In this document: one piece after another, positions 6,325 to 39,848 of the stretch | Position numbering within the stretch: the stretch's first letter is position 1 | How the letters are laid out: the number at the start of each line of letters is the position of its first letter | Source of the DNA: Bacillota bacterium | Lineage (GTDB): Bacteria; Bacillota; Limnochordia; Darwinibacteriales; Darwinibacteriaceae | Direction of reading: 5' to 3' | Assembly (NCBI GenBank): GCA_012520355.1 | Contig: JAAYOK010000153.1 | Span: forward strand, 1-42,723 | Length of the DNA: 42,723 bases | Position numbers and translations under genes: made by a program | Notes under the pieces: model-generated | Databases searched by the model: none | Told to the model about the DNA's origin: nothing | What the model saw: the letters and a program-made list of their open reading frames with translations, nothing else

Positions 6325-7419
6325 TTAGGCGGTAGCAACGTTCTTGCGTTTGGCGCTTCGAATCTCCGCTATAATCCATAAGCCTATGGGTATTATCACT
6401 TGCATCAAAACGTTGGAAGGTCCGATCACTTTGGTCACACTTCTCTCCACTTCCATCATGTTCTTGGCCAACCATTGGGCTCCTGGGATCATGGCCAAGG
6501 CCACAGGTGTAACCAGAAAGCGATAATCGCTAAACCCCAAGCCAATGGCCAAGGTTTTGCTAGCAGCCAAGATACACACAGCCGCTTTCAAGAACCCTCC
6601 AATGGCAAAACTGATAGAAACAATGGCCTCCAGGCGAGTCAGAAAAGCCACCACATCAATCCGAGACATGGCCACAAAGACCGGGAAGTAGTTCGTCACA
6701 TACTGTTCTACTCCCAAGACAGCGAGGCTCGAGTTGGCGATAGCTAACATGACCAGGGACGCTATGAGCAGGCCTGGGAGTAAGACCCTGTAGGGAGAAT
6801 CTGGTTTGATGAAGTCATCAAAAGCCCAGAAAAGGACAATCGTTTCGAGAAAAGGAAGGTCCAGGAGTTGCAGAGCTCCAAACAAGACTGGTTGAAAGCC
6901 TTCATACATGACTGGCAAGAACTCAGCAAAATGCACTTCACTCATGAGCATCCCAAAAGCGAAAAAAAGAATAAGTAAGACGCCCCTGATCATCACGGTG
7001 CTAAAGCGGGCCAAAACCTCAATCCCCTCCTTTGCGGCCCAGATCCCAAGGAGCACAAAGCCGATGGCTACGACGAACCGAGGGGTACTCGGCAGAGAAA
7101 TGGTCTCAATGAACCTTGTCAAATCAATCAGAACATAGGACCCTAAGCGCCAAGCATAGAGACTGTAGCTTAGTGCCAACGCCCGAGAAGGCCATTTACC
7201 AAATAGAGTTGCCAGGCCTTCTTGCAAAGATTTCCCCTGCATGAGGCTGCGCAAACGAGCATACAGAGCCAACATGGGGACTGCCAATATGATGGCCACC
7301 AAGAAGGCTAACCAAAGATCGTTACCAGCGCGGCTACCCAAATCCATGTTAAAGGAGTTACCGAGAACAAAGAGGATGACGATTGCCACACCCTGACGAT
7401 CAGGCACCAACTCCTTCAT
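6325..7419 (-). CDS. Spore germination permease, GerAB/GerB family
   Basis: ~364 aa polytopic membrane protein (MKELVPDRQGVAIVILFVLGNSF...), located in a GerA/GerC operon; start with SD GGGGTGG at 7419. Confidence 0.88.
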   Translation of the reverse strand: MKELVPDRQGVAIVILFVLGNSFNMDLGSRAGNDLWLAFLVAIILAVPMLALYARLRSLMQGKSLQEGLATLFGKWPSRALALSYSLYAWRLGSYVLIDLTRFIETISLPSTPRFVVAIGFVLLGIWAAKEGIEVLARFSTVMIRGVLLILFFAFGMLMSEVHFAEFLPVMYEGFQPVLFGALQLLDLPFLETIVLFWAFDDFIKPDSPYRVLLPGLLIASLVMLAIANSSLAVLGVEQYVTNYFPVFVAMSRIDVVAFLTRLEAIVSISFAIGGFLKAAVCILAASKTLAIGLGFSDYRFLVTPVALAMIPGAQWLAKNMMEVERSVTKVIGPSNVLMQVIIPIGLWIIAEIRSAKRKNVATA

Positions 7420-7670
7420 TGCTGTCCACCCCCTGACCAAAGCTTACTTACCCAGTGTAAGAACATCCCTAGAGGTTGGGGAACAGGCACTTCCCAGCCA
7501 GATACGATCAAGACACTGAGTGCTGCTGCCGCAAGCAAAGCACCTAGATAGGCCACGATCTGCCTCCAAGGTCGCTCTGACCACAACCAGAGTTCAAACG
7601 CCGCCACCACAGCGTAGCCGAGAATAACGAGGACCACCATCTCAGCGCCTCGGAGTAATGGGATAAGCAC
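7416..7670 (-). CDS. Small two-TM protein embedded in the ger operon (candidate germinant-receptor D-type subunit)
   Basis: 84 aa, two hydrophobic segments; overlaps gerC (7642-7670) and gerB (7416-7419) genes, indicating translational coupling. Confidence 0.75.
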   Translation of the reverse strand: MLIPLLRGAEMVVLVILGYAVVAAFELWLWSERPWRQIVAYLGALLAAAALSVLIVSGWEVPVPQPLGMFLHWVSKLWSGGGQQ

Positions 7671-8793
7671 GTACTCCTGTTAAGACAATTCTGCATTTGA
7701 CCTCCACATCAATGGCCAACTCTTGTAGGTGGGCATCCCAATCCTGGGAATAGCGGCGCCAGATCTCTGGCTCTTGGCGCCTCACCATTTGGCCAAAACC
7801 GAGAATATCGGAGCCAAACTCTTTTTGCGTCTTCTCTACGAACTCCCGGATTCGTCGGTTGAAATAGTGGGCTAGTTGTTCTTCCATGCTAGCCACAATG
7901 GAAGAATCGTGAAAGGAAAAGTTGGCCGTTCCAAGCTCAGTTACATCAAACTCCAGTTCTACACCTATTTTCATCGACAAATCACCACCTTCCGTCTGTG
8001 GACTCAGTTCTGCGGTATTGTTGACAAACTCATAGGTAATGGGGTAGGTTTCCCCACGGATCTTTGTTTCCATCACAAAACGTCCTGACTGCTCCATCCC
8101 TTGGAGCAAGCAAAAAACCTGCGATTCTTCCCCATTGAGCCATCCCACCATACGATCGAGCTTGAACACAGCCGTTCCTTTTATAATGGGAACCTTGTCC
8201 GTCCCTTCCTGGACCAATTGCACCGTGGGCAAAGCACCACAAACACCGGTCGCCAACATATCCTTGACAAATTCCCAGACCTGTTGGGGGAGAAACGTCG
8301 AAAGGGAGCTCTGCAAACGCGCGGTACTGGCTAGATGTTCGCTAACCGACTTGGCAAAAAGGGGCTTACTATTGAAGACTTCTTCAACCGTACAGTCTTT
8401 GGTCACAAAAAAAGGAGTTGTGGTTCGCATATCACGTGCTCGTACCAGGTATTCGACAGCCGGGAGCAAACCGTTTCTGGCCACCTCCTCCGATACAAGA
8501 AAGACCTGGGCATGGGGATAGAAGATTTCCAGGCCGGCTGGGTTAGTTAGGGTACGGACCGCACTAGAAAAACTCCTTCCCTTGGTGGAAAGTACCACGG
8601 GCTGAGACTCTGGTTCTTGACCCCCACCCGTTGACATGATCATTTCTGTGATTAAGACAAAGTCGGGGTCCACTTGGTCCACACCAAAGCCAAAGACAAA
8701 ATCCAAGAACGCAATCTCCCGATAATCCCAGCAACCGACTAGAAGCAAGGCGAGAACGAAAATCACAAAATACTTTAGGAAGCGGAGCTTCAT
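7642..8793 (-). CDS. Ger(x)C family germination lipoprotein
   Basis: Lipobox LLVGCWDYREI followed by typical GerC domain (DFVFGFGVDQ...RDMRTTTPFFVTKDCTVEEVF). Confidence 0.93.
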   Translation of the reverse strand: MKLRFLKYFVIFVLALLLVGCWDYREIAFLDFVFGFGVDQVDPDFVLITEMIMSTGGGQEPESQPVVLSTKGRSFSSAVRTLTNPAGLEIFYPHAQVFLVSEEVARNGLLPAVEYLVRARDMRTTTPFFVTKDCTVEEVFNSKPLFAKSVSEHLASTARLQSSLSTFLPQQVWEFVKDMLATGVCGALPTVQLVQEGTDKVPIIKGTAVFKLDRMVGWLNGEESQVFCLLQGMEQSGRFVMETKIRGETYPITYEFVNNTAELSPQTEGGDLSMKIGVELEFDVTELGTANFSFHDSSIVASMEEQLAHYFNRRIREFVEKTQKEFGSDILGFGQMVRRQEPEIWRRYSQDWDAHLQELAIDVEVKCRIVLTGVRAYPITPRR

Positions 8794-10328
8794 GGTTCCC
8801 TACTCCTTGACTTGGGTTCTAAGCGCTGCCTGTCCTTGGCACCTAGATAGCGAGGCCGTAAGACCATTTTCCACCAAGGCAGGCGGACTGCGGTATCCTT
8901 CATACCTTGGGCTGTAAAGGAAGTTAGAGCTGAAAGGTATGGAACCCCAAAGGATTGCATGGCCGAAAGTTGCAGAACAATTGCCATGAATCCTAGAACA
9001 AACCCATGCAAACCAAGTACGGAGGAGGTTAAGACCAGAAATAGACGCATGATGACGGCAGCGTCATAGACGTAGGAGACGACAAAGCCTGCAATAGCCG
9101 TAAGTCCCACCACAACGATCATGGGTGCACCAACTAAGCTAGCGTTGACCGCCGCGTCCCCGAGAACAATAGCCCCTACGATACTAATGGCTTGACCCAC
9201 CGGGCGAGGCAAACGGACACCACCCTCTCTTAAGATTTCAAAGACCAAGCCCATGAGTACCACTTCCACAAAACCAGGAAAGGGTACATTCTTGCGGGCA
9301 GCCGCAATGCTGAGGGCCAAGGGTGTTGGAATGAGCTGTGGATGATAGGCGATCAGGGCTAAATAAATGGCAGGAGTACTGGTTGTAAGGAAAAAGCTGA
9401 TATAGCGTAAGAAACGATGAAATGTTCCCGCCAGCCAATGGTTATAGTAGTCCTCGTTGGCTTGAAAGATTTCCACGAACAGATGGGGCATGGTGAGGGC
9501 AAAGGGGCTACCGTCAACGATAACTGCCACTCTTCCTTCGAGGATCTTAGCCGCGACAATATCGGGCCGCTCGGTATACCCAACAGTGGGCAGGGAAAAG
9601 TTCGGGCCATCTTGGATCAGTTCCTGAATATAACCGGAATCGAGAACCGCATCAATCTCGATTCTCTCCATCCGTTTCACGACTTCATCCACCAAGTCCA
9701 CGGATACAATCGGCTCCACGTAAACAATCGCTGTTTTCGTCTTCGTTTGCTTGCCCACATCGAGATACTTGACTTTTAACTGGGGACCTGCGATTTTGCG
9801 CCTCACCAAATTGACATTGACCCCCAAATCTTCGGTAAAACCTTGGCGGGGTCCCCGGACTACAGTCTCCGACTCAGGTTCGGTAATGGTCCTCCGATCC
9901 CAACCAGGAGCCTCAACCATGATACCAAAGTTGCAGCCCTCCACAAGTACCACTCCAGAGCCTCGGGCAATGGCATCAACTAACTTCATGTAATGGGATG
10001 AAGAGGCCACCTGATCACTTTGGACCACCCGCTCACTAATAAAGTCAGCTAGTTCTTGTCCGGAGCTTCTTAGCGGCAAGGAGCTCGTCATGAGGGGCCG
10101 CATGACATATTGGCTCAGAAACTCTGAGTTGGTCATATTGTCGGCAAAGATCAAGACACAAGAACGAGAGTTGGGTTCTGCGGTGCGAAAACGGCGATAC
10201 ATAATGCTTTCATCATGAATCAAGATATCACGTTGGAACCAATTCAGGTTTCTTTCCAGGGAAGGGCTCAGCCGCTCTAAGCCTTTCACGTTCGGTTTAT
10301 GCTTTTTGGCTCTTTTCCAAAAGAACAT
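8790..10328 (-). CDS. Spore germination protein, GerA family
   Basis: DILIHDES...YRRFRTAEPNSRSC...RMERIEIDAVLDSGYIQELIQDGPNFSLPTVGYTERPDIVAAKILEGRVAVIVDGSPFALTMPHLF is diagnostic of the GerA family. SD GGGAGGG precedes ATG at 10328. Confidence 0.96.
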   Translation of the reverse strand: MFFWKRAKKHKPNVKGLERLSPSLERNLNWFQRDILIHDESIMYRRFRTAEPNSRSCVLIFADNMTNSEFLSQYVMRPLMTSSLPLRSSGQELADFISERVVQSDQVASSSHYMKLVDAIARGSGVVLVEGCNFGIMVEAPGWDRRTITEPESETVVRGPRQGFTEDLGVNVNLVRRKIAGPQLKVKYLDVGKQTKTKTAIVYVEPIVSVDLVDEVVKRMERIEIDAVLDSGYIQELIQDGPNFSLPTVGYTERPDIVAAKILEGRVAVIVDGSPFALTMPHLFVEIFQANEDYYNHWLAGTFHRFLRYISFFLTTSTPAIYLALIAYHPQLIPTPLALSIAAARKNVPFPGFVEVVLMGLVFEILREGGVRLPRPVGQAISIVGAIVLGDAAVNASLVGAPMIVVVGLTAIAGFVVSYVYDAAVIMRLFLVLTSSVLGLHGFVLGFMAIVLQLSAMQSFGVPYLSALTSFTAQGMKDTAVRLPWWKMVLRPRYLGAKDRQRLEPKSRSREP

Positions 10329-10383
10329 CGCACACTTCCCTCCCACTTTTTGCTAGTATATCCAAAAAGAGAAGGAATATAAA

Positions 10384-37105: not shown

Positions 37106-37182
37106 TTGTCCAAAAATAGGAGTAAGCACCTAATTCCCTTTCACGAGACCTGAATACCATATGACAGAAAGGGGGGTGTTCC

Positions 37183-37377
37183 ATGGGAAATCCATTTTTC
37201 CGGCAGAATGAACTCGACCTCTCCTCCATCCTCGCAGGGGGGATGCCCATCCTGTCGTCCATGTTCTCTGGCAACATTTTGCCGAAACTCACGAGTTTCC
37301 TTGAACAGATGGATCCTGAGTTGCTGGAGGCCATCGCCAGACAGCTTTCCCCAATAGAGCCTGGAAGGAGTGAATAA
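37183..37377 (+). CDS. Small protein (64 aa), related in layout to downstream small proteins
   Basis: SD GAAAGGGGGG; MGNPFFRQNELDLSSILAGGMPILSSMFSGNILPKLTSFLEQMDPELLEAIARQLSPIEPGRSE. Confidence 0.75.
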   Translation: MGNPFFRQNELDLSSILAGGMPILSSMFSGNILPKLTSFLEQMDPELLEAIARQLSPIEPGRSE

Positions 37378-37378
37378 T

Positions 37379-37477
37379 ATGGGTAGACCCAGACCGATCT
37401 GCTGTGGAATAGACCCTGTTACGGCCATCTTCATTCTATTCCTGGTTGTACTTCTGATCATCGGCTTCAATCTATAA
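37379..37477 (+). CDS. Tiny single-TM peptide (32 aa)
   Basis: SD GGAAGGAG; MGRPRPICCGIDPVTAIFILFLVVLLIIGFNL; stop/start spacing of 1 nt with the upstream ORF. Not in the supplied ORF track because of its size. Confidence 0.7.
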   Translation: MGRPRPICCGIDPVTAIFILFLVVLLIIGFNL

Positions 37478-37497
37478 CAAGAACGGGAGGTGCTGCC

Positions 37498-37752
37498 GTG
37501 AAAGAGAAGGATAGTCAAACGCTGGATTCGTTACTCAAACTGCTTCCCATACTAGCCGCCAGTTACCCTCAAATCACCGCCCTATTGGGGCAACTTACAG
37601 GAGAGGCCCCTGGCCCAAGCGGTCAAGTCCAGGATGTGATTCCCAAAATAACGCAACGATTGGCCACCATGGACCAGGAAACAAAAGACGAACTGGTCAA
37701 ACAGCTCTATAGTTTCTTTCCCGAACTTAAGGAGCTCGCCAAGGGACGGTAA
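37498..37752 (+). CDS. Small 'LLKLL-SYP' protein (84 aa), paralogue of 39102-39365
   Basis: GTG start with SD CGGGAGGTG; SQTLDSLLKLLPILAASYPQITALLGQL. Confidence 0.8.
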   Translation: MKEKDSQTLDSLLKLLPILAASYPQITALLGQLTGEAPGPSGQVQDVIPKITQRLATMDQETKDELVKQLYSFFPELKELAKGR

Positions 37753-37763
37753 CGAAATGTTTG

Positions 37764-37793
37764 GTGCCCTAGGGGCAAAATCCCTAGGGCACT
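37764..37793. terminator. Bidirectional terminator
   Basis: GTGCCCTAGGG-gcaaaat-CCCTAGGGCAC perfect 11-bp stem between convergent genes. Confidence 0.8.
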
Positions 37794-38806
37794 TGTCTTG
37801 CCTGAAGAGTGGAGAGTAGATGCCCTTGATACGCAAGGGGATTCAGATAGATGCGCCGCAGCAGGGCCTTGTCCGCAAGCCCCCAAAAGAGACTTTTATC
37901 GGGCTTGCCATTGACCTCCAAAATCCAGGGGTTTCCCTCTACATCGATGAGAAAGTCCACCCCTAACTCGCCCAAGATAGCATAGGAACCATCAAGGGAT
38001 TCAGCCACAGCCTGGCTGATGACCCTCAGACGTGCCAGTAGAGGGGACGGTACGAAATCAGCCGGAGCTGCAATGGTATGGTAGTGGTTGGTTAAGAGAT
38101 TAGAGGCAAGACCGATCCGACTCAACTCCCCCCCTACTTCCCAATTACCTCCACCATTTTTCTGCATGAGAATTCGTACATCAAACCTGTCATCACCCAG
38201 CACGGCGCTTTCAATATACTCTTGGGCGATAAACGTCTCAGGTGGCGCGGTGGCAAGTAAAAGGGGGATGAAAAGGTCGGCACCTATAAGGGGAACTGGT
38301 ATGCCTACCCCAGAACGGATAATGATCACACTTGGAGTTAAGAGTGTAAGCTTAAGAACTCCAGCGCCGCCATGGCTGAGGCGAGGCTTCAAGATGAGGG
38401 AGGGATGTCGAGTCAAGATCTCCCCGAAATCATCATCCGTATACTTGTAGGTTCTAGGCAGGTACTCGCCGAGCCCCTGTTCCTCCAAGCTCTGATAGAC
38501 GTCCCATTTATCGAAATGGGTACGATCGTTAAAGATATGCTCCGATCCCAAGATCTGACCTAGTCTCAGTAAAAGGTCCTGAGGCTCTGGAAAGCAGCGA
38601 TTATAGATGATCTTAGGGAAAGCAAAGTAGCCCTGTTGCCAGCGCCCCCTCTTCAAGAGAAGACCTCCAACTCGTTCCCTAGCCCAGTCGATACCCCCGG
38701 GGTCAAAGAAGAGCAAATCCACGGGATACTCCCTGGAAAGAGATCCATACACTCTTACTCTGTGTAGCTTGTTTAACAGTATAGCCTGACTAACTCTTCG
38801 ATACAT
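37784..38806 (-). CDS. ATP-grasp protein, YheC/YheD (endospore coat-associated) family
   Basis: GGLLLKRGRWQQGYFAFPKIIYNRCF, HFDKWDVYQSLEEQGLGEYLPRTYKY, LILKPRLSHGGAGVLKL, YAILGELGVDFLIDVEGNPWILEVNGKPDKSLFW. Confidence 0.88.
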   Translation of the reverse strand: MYRRVSQAILLNKLHRVRVYGSLSREYPVDLLFFDPGGIDWARERVGGLLLKRGRWQQGYFAFPKIIYNRCFPEPQDLLLRLGQILGSEHIFNDRTHFDKWDVYQSLEEQGLGEYLPRTYKYTDDDFGEILTRHPSLILKPRLSHGGAGVLKLTLLTPSVIIIRSGVGIPVPLIGADLFIPLLLATAPPETFIAQEYIESAVLGDDRFDVRILMQKNGGGNWEVGGELSRIGLASNLLTNHYHTIAAPADFVPSPLLARLRVISQAVAESLDGSYAILGELGVDFLIDVEGNPWILEVNGKPDKSLFWGLADKALLRRIYLNPLAYQGHLLSTLQARQVP

Positions 38807-38927
38807 GGTAGCGCCCCCCAAAGAGCGAAAATGAGAACTCAGAATTATGGCAGTCCACATAGACTGTCATATTGTATGAGCAAGAAGGGTAGCAGCTTCT
38901 TAATTCTCCGCCAAGGGGGTGCACTCC

Positions 38928-39008
38928 GTGACTGACAACCAAGAGACCTTCATCGTCTTTGTAGCCTTGATCCTCATCGTGATTTTGGCTGTGATCTTGC
39001 TTGCCTAG
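38928..39008 (+). CDS. Tiny single-TM peptide (26 aa)
   Basis: GTG start with SD AAGGGGGTG; MTDNQETFIVFVALILIVILAVILLA. Not in supplied ORF track because of its size. Confidence 0.65.
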   Translation: MTDNQETFIVFVALILIVILAVILLA

Positions 39009-39015
39009 CTCTGGC

Positions 39016-39038
39016 AGGGATGGGGCCTCCCCATCCCT
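39016..39038 (+). terminator. Hairpin / weak terminator after the 26-aa gene
   Basis: AGGGATGGGG-cct-CCCCATCCCT, 10-bp stem, only a poor pyrimidine tract after it. Confidence 0.5.
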
Positions 39039-39101
39039 CCTTCTACTCCCAATAGTATATGAGAGACAAAGTAGGTGTGACCCAGAAAGGAGGTGTGAAT
39101 C

Positions 39102-39365
39102 TTGGAGTCAACGAATGGCGACTTGACCAAATCAAGCGAGACCTTTGAGACATTGCTCAAGCTACTTGCGCTACTCATCACGAGTTATCCTGCAATTTTG
39201 TCCCTTCTGGAACAGTTCAAGGAGGACTTCGCAAGCGGAATCCGCACCATCACAGAGGCCCTGAACAGCATTCGTGAGGAGAATGGGGATCCAGAAAGGC
39301 TCACGAGACAACTCACAGAAGCCATACCAGAACTTGGGAAGTACATTCCTAAAGCATATACCTAA
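39102..39365 (+). CDS. Small 'LLKLL-SYP' protein (87 aa)
   Basis: TTG start with strong SD AAAGGAGGTG; SETFETLLKLLALLITSYPAILSLLEQF, paralogous to 37498-37752. Confidence 0.82.
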   Translation: MESTNGDLTKSSETFETLLKLLALLITSYPAILSLLEQFKEDFASGIRTITEALNSIREENGDPERLTRQLTEAIPELGKYIPKAYT

Positions 39366-39370
39366 GGAAA

Positions 39371-39410
39371 AAGAGGCTGGCAGACGATCCTTCTATCCAG
39401 CCTCTTTCGG
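39371..39410. terminator. Bidirectional terminator overlapping the end of the membrane-protein gene
   Basis: AAGAGGCTGG-N16-CCAGCCTCTT then T-rich. Confidence 0.75.
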
Positions 39411-39848
39411 TGTCTCTGTACCGTCCAATCTCCTGACCAGGTACCCAAGGAGCACTCCCCACAAAATGGCCCCGATTTTGCCGCTCAGCACCGTACCTAC
39501 CGTGGCTTGACTTACATGCGGTACCCTATACAAAACGGCAATAGCACTCTCTGCAAAGCTTAGTAGGAGGCTAAAGATGAGCGCCTTACCCAAATAGCCC
39601 TGGGAATGGGTATCGGAAAAGGCATACGAAAAAACAACTCCCCTAAACCCAGACCAAAGAAGCTGTAAGGCCAAGGACGAAACCACCTCTAGTGTACTTT
39701 GGGGCAGTCTACCATAGATGATAACGCCTGCCCAATCGAGCATTTGAAAGGCGGCAAGGTCCAAAGTGTGAAAGGAAATGTAACTCCAAAGATTGAGAGG
39801 AATGGCAGCGAGCACACCGCCTACAAAGCCTCGGTAGAATCGATCCAT
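39393..39848 (-). CDS. Hypothetical polytopic membrane protein (~151 aa)
   Basis: MDRFYRGFVGGVLAAIPLNLWSYISFHTLDLAAFQMLDWAGVIIYGRLPQS..., several hydrophobic segments. Confidence 0.75.
   Translation of the reverse strand: MDRFYRGFVGGVLAAIPLNLWSYISFHTLDLAAFQMLDWAGVIIYGRLPQSTLEVVSSLALQLLWSGFRGVVFSYAFSDTHSQGYLGKALIFSLLLSFAESAIAVLYRVPHVSQATVGTVLSGKIGAILWGVLLGYLVRRLDGTETPKEAG

Follow-up and report, generated by a model that had tools for sequence, protein, structure and literature searches.

SpoVM, a coat-recruiting peptide of 26 aa, is an amphipathic, cationic helix that lies on the surface. Among other short sporulation proteins, yjcZ belongs to the sigma-K regulon in B. subtilis (PMC517825), and SpoVQ of C. 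difficile is a bitopic membrane protein, confined to one lineage, that connects coat and cortex (PMC8265636). The YheC/YheD-type ATP-grasp YheD of B. subtilis encircles the forespore in a SpoIVA-dependent manner and self-associates, with no known activity (PMC7911427). YheC/YheD-type coat ATP-grasps have no known function, and the clade described here offers a way to test which molecules they bind or modify. Its module also shows that uncultured spore-formers have coat-module peptides likely missed by standard annotation; no description of its arrangement was found in the open-licence literature.

The window is the whole stretch of DNA analysed, 42,723 nt from a Bacillota bacterium (Darwinibacteriaceae; assembly GCA_012520355.1, contig JAAYOK010000153.1, forward strand). 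An earlier note on this DNA had described a duplicated two-gene module, a tiny transmembrane peptide followed by a protein of about 85 aa, on either side of an ATP-grasp gene. Re-reading the open reading frames bore out the coordinates and lengths of its four plus-strand genes, TM1 (37379-37477, 32 aa), s84 (37498-37752, 84 aa), TM2 (38928-39008, 26 aa) and s87 (39102-39365, 87 aa), and the intervening gene on the opposite strand (37784-38806, 340 aa; enclosing open reading frame 37784-38860) is of the YheC/D type, as claimed (PF14398, 141 bits against a curated cut-off of 26.8, E=4.8e-41). The first unit has three genes, since the 64-aa open reading frame s64 (37183-37377, plus strand), whose stop lies 1 nt ahead of the TM1 start, had been overlooked. 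The order in the window is s64-TM1-s84 rightward, ATP-grasp leftward and TM2-s87 rightward. The small genes have good ribosome sites, as the note had it, and these are conserved for both tiny ones.

This is a real, co-inherited module with undescribed small-protein families. Among 73 genomes of the class, profile searches matched TM1 in 22, TM2 in 21 and the s-protein family in 19; all TM2 matches lie at the module and TM1 and s-family matches are almost confined to it, a TM1 match in G014 being taken as chance because it falls inside a 438-aa frame. Direct reading added the TM1 of G031 and the TM2 and s-protein of G027. Co-occurrence of the small proteins with the peptides and YheC/D, which the note had proposed to tabulate, is the rule: 22 genomes carry TM1 and TM2 with an adjoining ATP-grasp, 17 from family f1 and five from family f3, and, because the carriers are related metagenome-assembled genomes, these and the other conservation counts are not independent. 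Outside the order, two phylum-level sets (300 and 399 genomes) yielded only weak matches in long or broken frames. In genera g1 and g4 of f1 the neighbouring genes encode SOD and a helicase, and other genes take their place in g5/g6 and f3, so the cluster is kept intact as its surroundings change. Genera g5/g6 have the order ATP-grasp, TM2-s-TM1-TM2-s. The duplication claimed earlier thus holds for the s-protein family, but not for a two-gene unit: the window has three s copies, TM1 and TM2 are distinct, and copy number and order differ between genera. In G005, a contig break within TM1 splits the module over contigs C37 and C76.

TM1 (MGRP..CCG.DP..AIFILFLV) and TM2 (xxxxQETFIVFVALILIVVLAVILLA) are both short, each with a single C-terminal hydrophobic segment; their N-termini carry the motifs MG[RK]..C..D and Q[EQ]TF, respectively. 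Judged by these motifs (CC...D versus QETF), they are two distinct conserved peptide families. Both are under strong purifying selection, in agreement with the earlier view that the tiny frames are translated: pN/pS is 0.20 for TM1 (13 genomes) and 0.154 for TM2 (23 genes), and third codon positions dominate the variation, with 22 of 25 variable in TM1 against 6-7 at positions 1-2, and 20 of 22 in TM2 (permutation p about 1e-4). Neither outcome that the note had named as fatal to its claim, missing co-occurrence or missing coding signal, was thus observed. Within a genus the two peptides are 84-97% identical (TM2 85-96%), compared with mostly about 30-80% for s64, s84 and s87, and TM1 retains 78-97% identity across genera g1 and g4.

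TM2 resembles SpoVM in size (26 aa) and in its proposed role as a docking peptide at the forespore membrane. Unlike SpoVM, it is uniformly hydrophobic, with a maximum hydrophobic moment of 0.18, a mean hydrophobicity of about 1, a net charge of -2 and no basic residue. As short hydrophobic peptides, TM1 and TM2 also recall YjcZ_2 (PF09680), but this model, searched in 23 genomes with E<=1 allowed, matched nothing at the module, while it did match control genomes including B. subtilis. SpoVQ, compared by description only, differs in being specific to Peptostreptococcaceae, and its abstract describes no ATP-grasp linkage (PMC8265636). Neither peptide has a Pfam or NCBIfam match above the curated cut-offs. 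Their size, their all-hydrophobic segment, a weak, non-significant Pfam similarity to CydS/COX4 small subunits and a predicted membrane protein gene at 39393-39848 (minus strand; no Pfam match), conserved near the module in g1 and g4 only, would fit small subunits like CydX or KdpF in some larger membrane complex that has no part in sporulation. We regard this as very improbable: the module has no conserved companion gene for a large membrane complex, the 39393-39848 gene did not turn up at the loci of g5/g6 and f3, and the ATP-grasp and promoters point to sporulation.

Those promoters lie upstream of s64 and TM2. A promoter-like composite for s64-TM1-s84 (37113-37161, plus strand) consists of AAAATAGGA at 37113-37121 and a -10-like AATACCATA at 37153-37161, and that of TM2 (38828-38876, plus strand) of AAAATGAGA at 38828-38836 and, 40 nt apart, a -10-like CATATTGTA at 38868-38876. 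Alignment, for s64 in 13 genomes, shows that a AAAATAGGA-like element 40 nt upstream of the -10 is common to both. The s64 -10-like sequence AATAC(C/T)ATA occurs in 13 of 13 genomes, against about 0.4 expected from shuffles, and the TM2 form CATAnnnTA or AATAnnnTA (MATANNNTA) in 19 of 23 genes, against 0.7. A candidate s87 -10 element, AATAGTATA (39051-39059, plus strand), is present only in some genus g1 genomes (5/23) and exceeds shuffles only with the longer pattern ATANNNTAWG. The ATP-grasp gene itself yielded no promoter element. The strict composite pattern had one control match and, across 23 genomes, 12 matches, of which ten belong to the module, one is 3' of the YheC/D gene of G008 and one is elsewhere. 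A strict match in G009 was set aside, since the gene downstream of it is dehydrogenase-like and unrelated. Nor did the relaxed form of the pattern, AAATAGG/CATANNNTA, reveal a regulon, with 10 matches listed against 8 in the reversed control; because it barely exceeds control genome-wide, the AAAATAGGA element is unsupported as a mark of a sporulation regulon.

The s64 and TM2 -10 elements resemble the spoIVA -10 of the same genomes. In 20 f1 genomes the spoIVA promoter, TTATATT-N13-AATATAGTA with at most one letter changed, fits the sigma-E consensus of B. subtilis. This resemblance makes mother-cell control plausible, and we consider mother-cell expression likely on the strength of these elements. 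SpoIVA is encoded in all 22 carriers; most relatives that lack the module have it too, so the correlation with sporulation runs one way only and the module is accessory. The window further contains a complete gerA-type spore germination operon (6325-10346, minus strand) with GerA, GerAC and Spore_permease domains. Taken together, a link between the module and sporulation is quite probable. The sporulation link that the note had proposed is supported by the mother-cell-type promoters and by SpoIVA in all carriers; its membrane and small-protein system needs amending as to the s-proteins, which are predicted to be helical and amphipathic instead of clearly membrane-spanning.

Two hairpins accompany the genes. 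One, terminator-like in both directions, lies between the convergent s84 and ATP-grasp genes (37763-37793) and overlaps the ATP-grasp stop codon; folding of f1 genomes from g1 and g4 gave a stem of the GTGCCCTAGG...CCTAGGGCAC type. The other, strong and directly 3' of TM2 (39017-39038, plus strand; stem GGGATGGGG...CCCCATCCC), was found in every module genome folded, with stem sequences that differ between f1 and f3. Their conservation suggests that TM2 and s87 are expressed separately or at graded levels. Very short hydrophobic reading frames, one of them followed by a strong hairpin, are also what type I toxin-like peptides under RNA control would look like, but identity of up to 97% in fixed synteny, the absence of a basic tail from TM2, the linkage to an ATP-grasp and conserved small proteins, and the lack of any Rfam match in the window make such an origin exceedingly improbable.

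The module ATP-grasps share the PF14398 domain and active-site residues of other YheC/YheD proteins, from which they differ in forming a separate clade (support 96/97), always flanked by TM1 and TM2; their neighbours s64 and TM2 carry the mother-cell-type promoter elements. Several non-module paralogues, which fall outside the clade, occur in the same genomes. One such second paralogue (G000:C13:9743-10477), present in many relatives, has no flanking micropeptides. Residues K140, Q195, D209, R211, D284, E297 and N299, which are expected to bind ATP/Mg as in other ATP-grasps, are invariant in 36 sequences. The AF2 model (pLDDT 95) resembles the carboxylate-amine ligases Ddl, RimK, LysX/ArgX, PruB and TTLL, and the enzyme is predicted to be a catalytically competent carboxylate-amine ligase. 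Members of the clade were never found without TM1 and TM2, both strongly conserved, and only rarely without the dedicated s-protein family.

The s-proteins form that family. BLASTP aligned s84 and s87 at 30 of 77 identical residues (E=1e-5), the 28-residue match pointed out earlier is indeed 15/28 identical, and in genome searches each retrieved the other (1.4e-4 and 7.3e-5). A family HMM, built from rows that include s64, s84 and s87 themselves, matched s84 at 1e-30, s87 at 4.7e-24 and s64 at 7.3e-10. Orthologues of s64 hold the same position in other g1 and g4 genomes and those of s87 occur in most module genomes, while the f3 genomes have a version of 144-166 aa. In G006 s87 is truncated and in G007 it was not found; TM2 is kept in both, which indicates that TM2 is independent of s87. 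The AF2 model of s84 is all-helical at low confidence (pLDDT 65), too uncertain for a fold search. No s-protein matched Pfam above the curated cut-offs, nor did the window members match NCBIfam, and Pfam, NCBIfam, PDB-sequence and YjcZ searches turned up no known family for the peptides or small proteins, in agreement with the note, which knew of no described family with this arrangement. A phage tail chaperone Pfam match of s84 was rejected at 0.0069, below the cut-off, as was a similarity of the family to TAL effector repeats in the PDB sequence search, a summed repeat score with no single passing stretch, which we took for low-complexity helical similarity.

LysX/ArgX-LysW and RimK share the ATP-grasp fold, at a low sequence identity of 13-17%, and a small protein partner for the module enzyme is conceivable. 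With the conserved catalytic residues, a structure near RimK, LysX/ArgX and peptide-modifying ATP-grasps, an s-family that always adjoins the ATP-grasp, and several s64 orthologues with an acidic last residue, s64, s84 and s87 could be substrates or carriers to which the enzyme ligates amino acids, in the manner of LysX/ArgX with LysW or RimK with S6, the TM peptides acting only as tethers. We think this rather unlikely, as the last residues of s84 and s87 vary, the invariant positions of their alignment are two prolines that offer no obvious modification site, and the s-proteins have no LysW-like C-terminal motif. Alignments of the s-proteins showed no graspetide-type core (repeated Ser/Thr/Lys with Asp/Glu). 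Another reading, in which TM1, TM2 and the s-proteins are independent small components of the coat or outer forespore membrane, merely co-regulated with a coat-localised, structurally acting ATP-grasp, is similarly doubtful. It would accord with the self-assembly of B. subtilis YheD in the absence of a known activity (PMC7911427), with the loss of s87 where TM2 is kept and with the reshuffled gene order in g5/g6, but the linkage, tight and nearly exclusive in both families, and the invariance of the catalytic residues point to something beyond loose co-regulation.

Our best model, held tentatively and at slightly less than an even chance, is an accessory mother-cell module of the outer forespore membrane or coat, in which micropeptides and s-proteins act with an active ligase; we infer the compartment, the membrane site and the recruitment of its components. 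Promoters of the sigma-E/sigma-K type would drive its transcription in the mother cell. TM1 and TM2 would then be tail-anchored in the outer forespore membrane, display their short conserved N-termini (CC..D and Q-E-T-F) to the cytosol of the mother cell, and could serve as docking points for the ATP-grasp ligase, the helical s-proteins or both, which together may form part of the basal coat layer. The peptides and s-proteins might scaffold, recruit or be substrates of the ligase. As to its substrate, we speculate that a coat component, perhaps the s-proteins, is what the enzyme most likely links to an amino acid or peptide. A more specific version, a membrane-tethered ATP-grasp on the forespore surface that is recruited by the micropeptides and covalently modifies dedicated small coat proteins, is on present evidence improbable, and we know of no description of such a protein-modification route for spore coats.

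The YheC/D gene in G008 (L089:3431-5040), a genome that has no module peptides, is followed by genes for two proteins of 172 and 191 aa without Pfam matches, and the same kind of AAAATAGGA/CATANNNTA composite as at the module lies between it and them. In f3, a predicted exported protein of 260-268 aa (no Pfam match for the L077 copy) precedes TM1, with copies at L077:837-1619 and L097:77-862 and, as reverse complements, at L075 730-1536 and L076 5008-5802.
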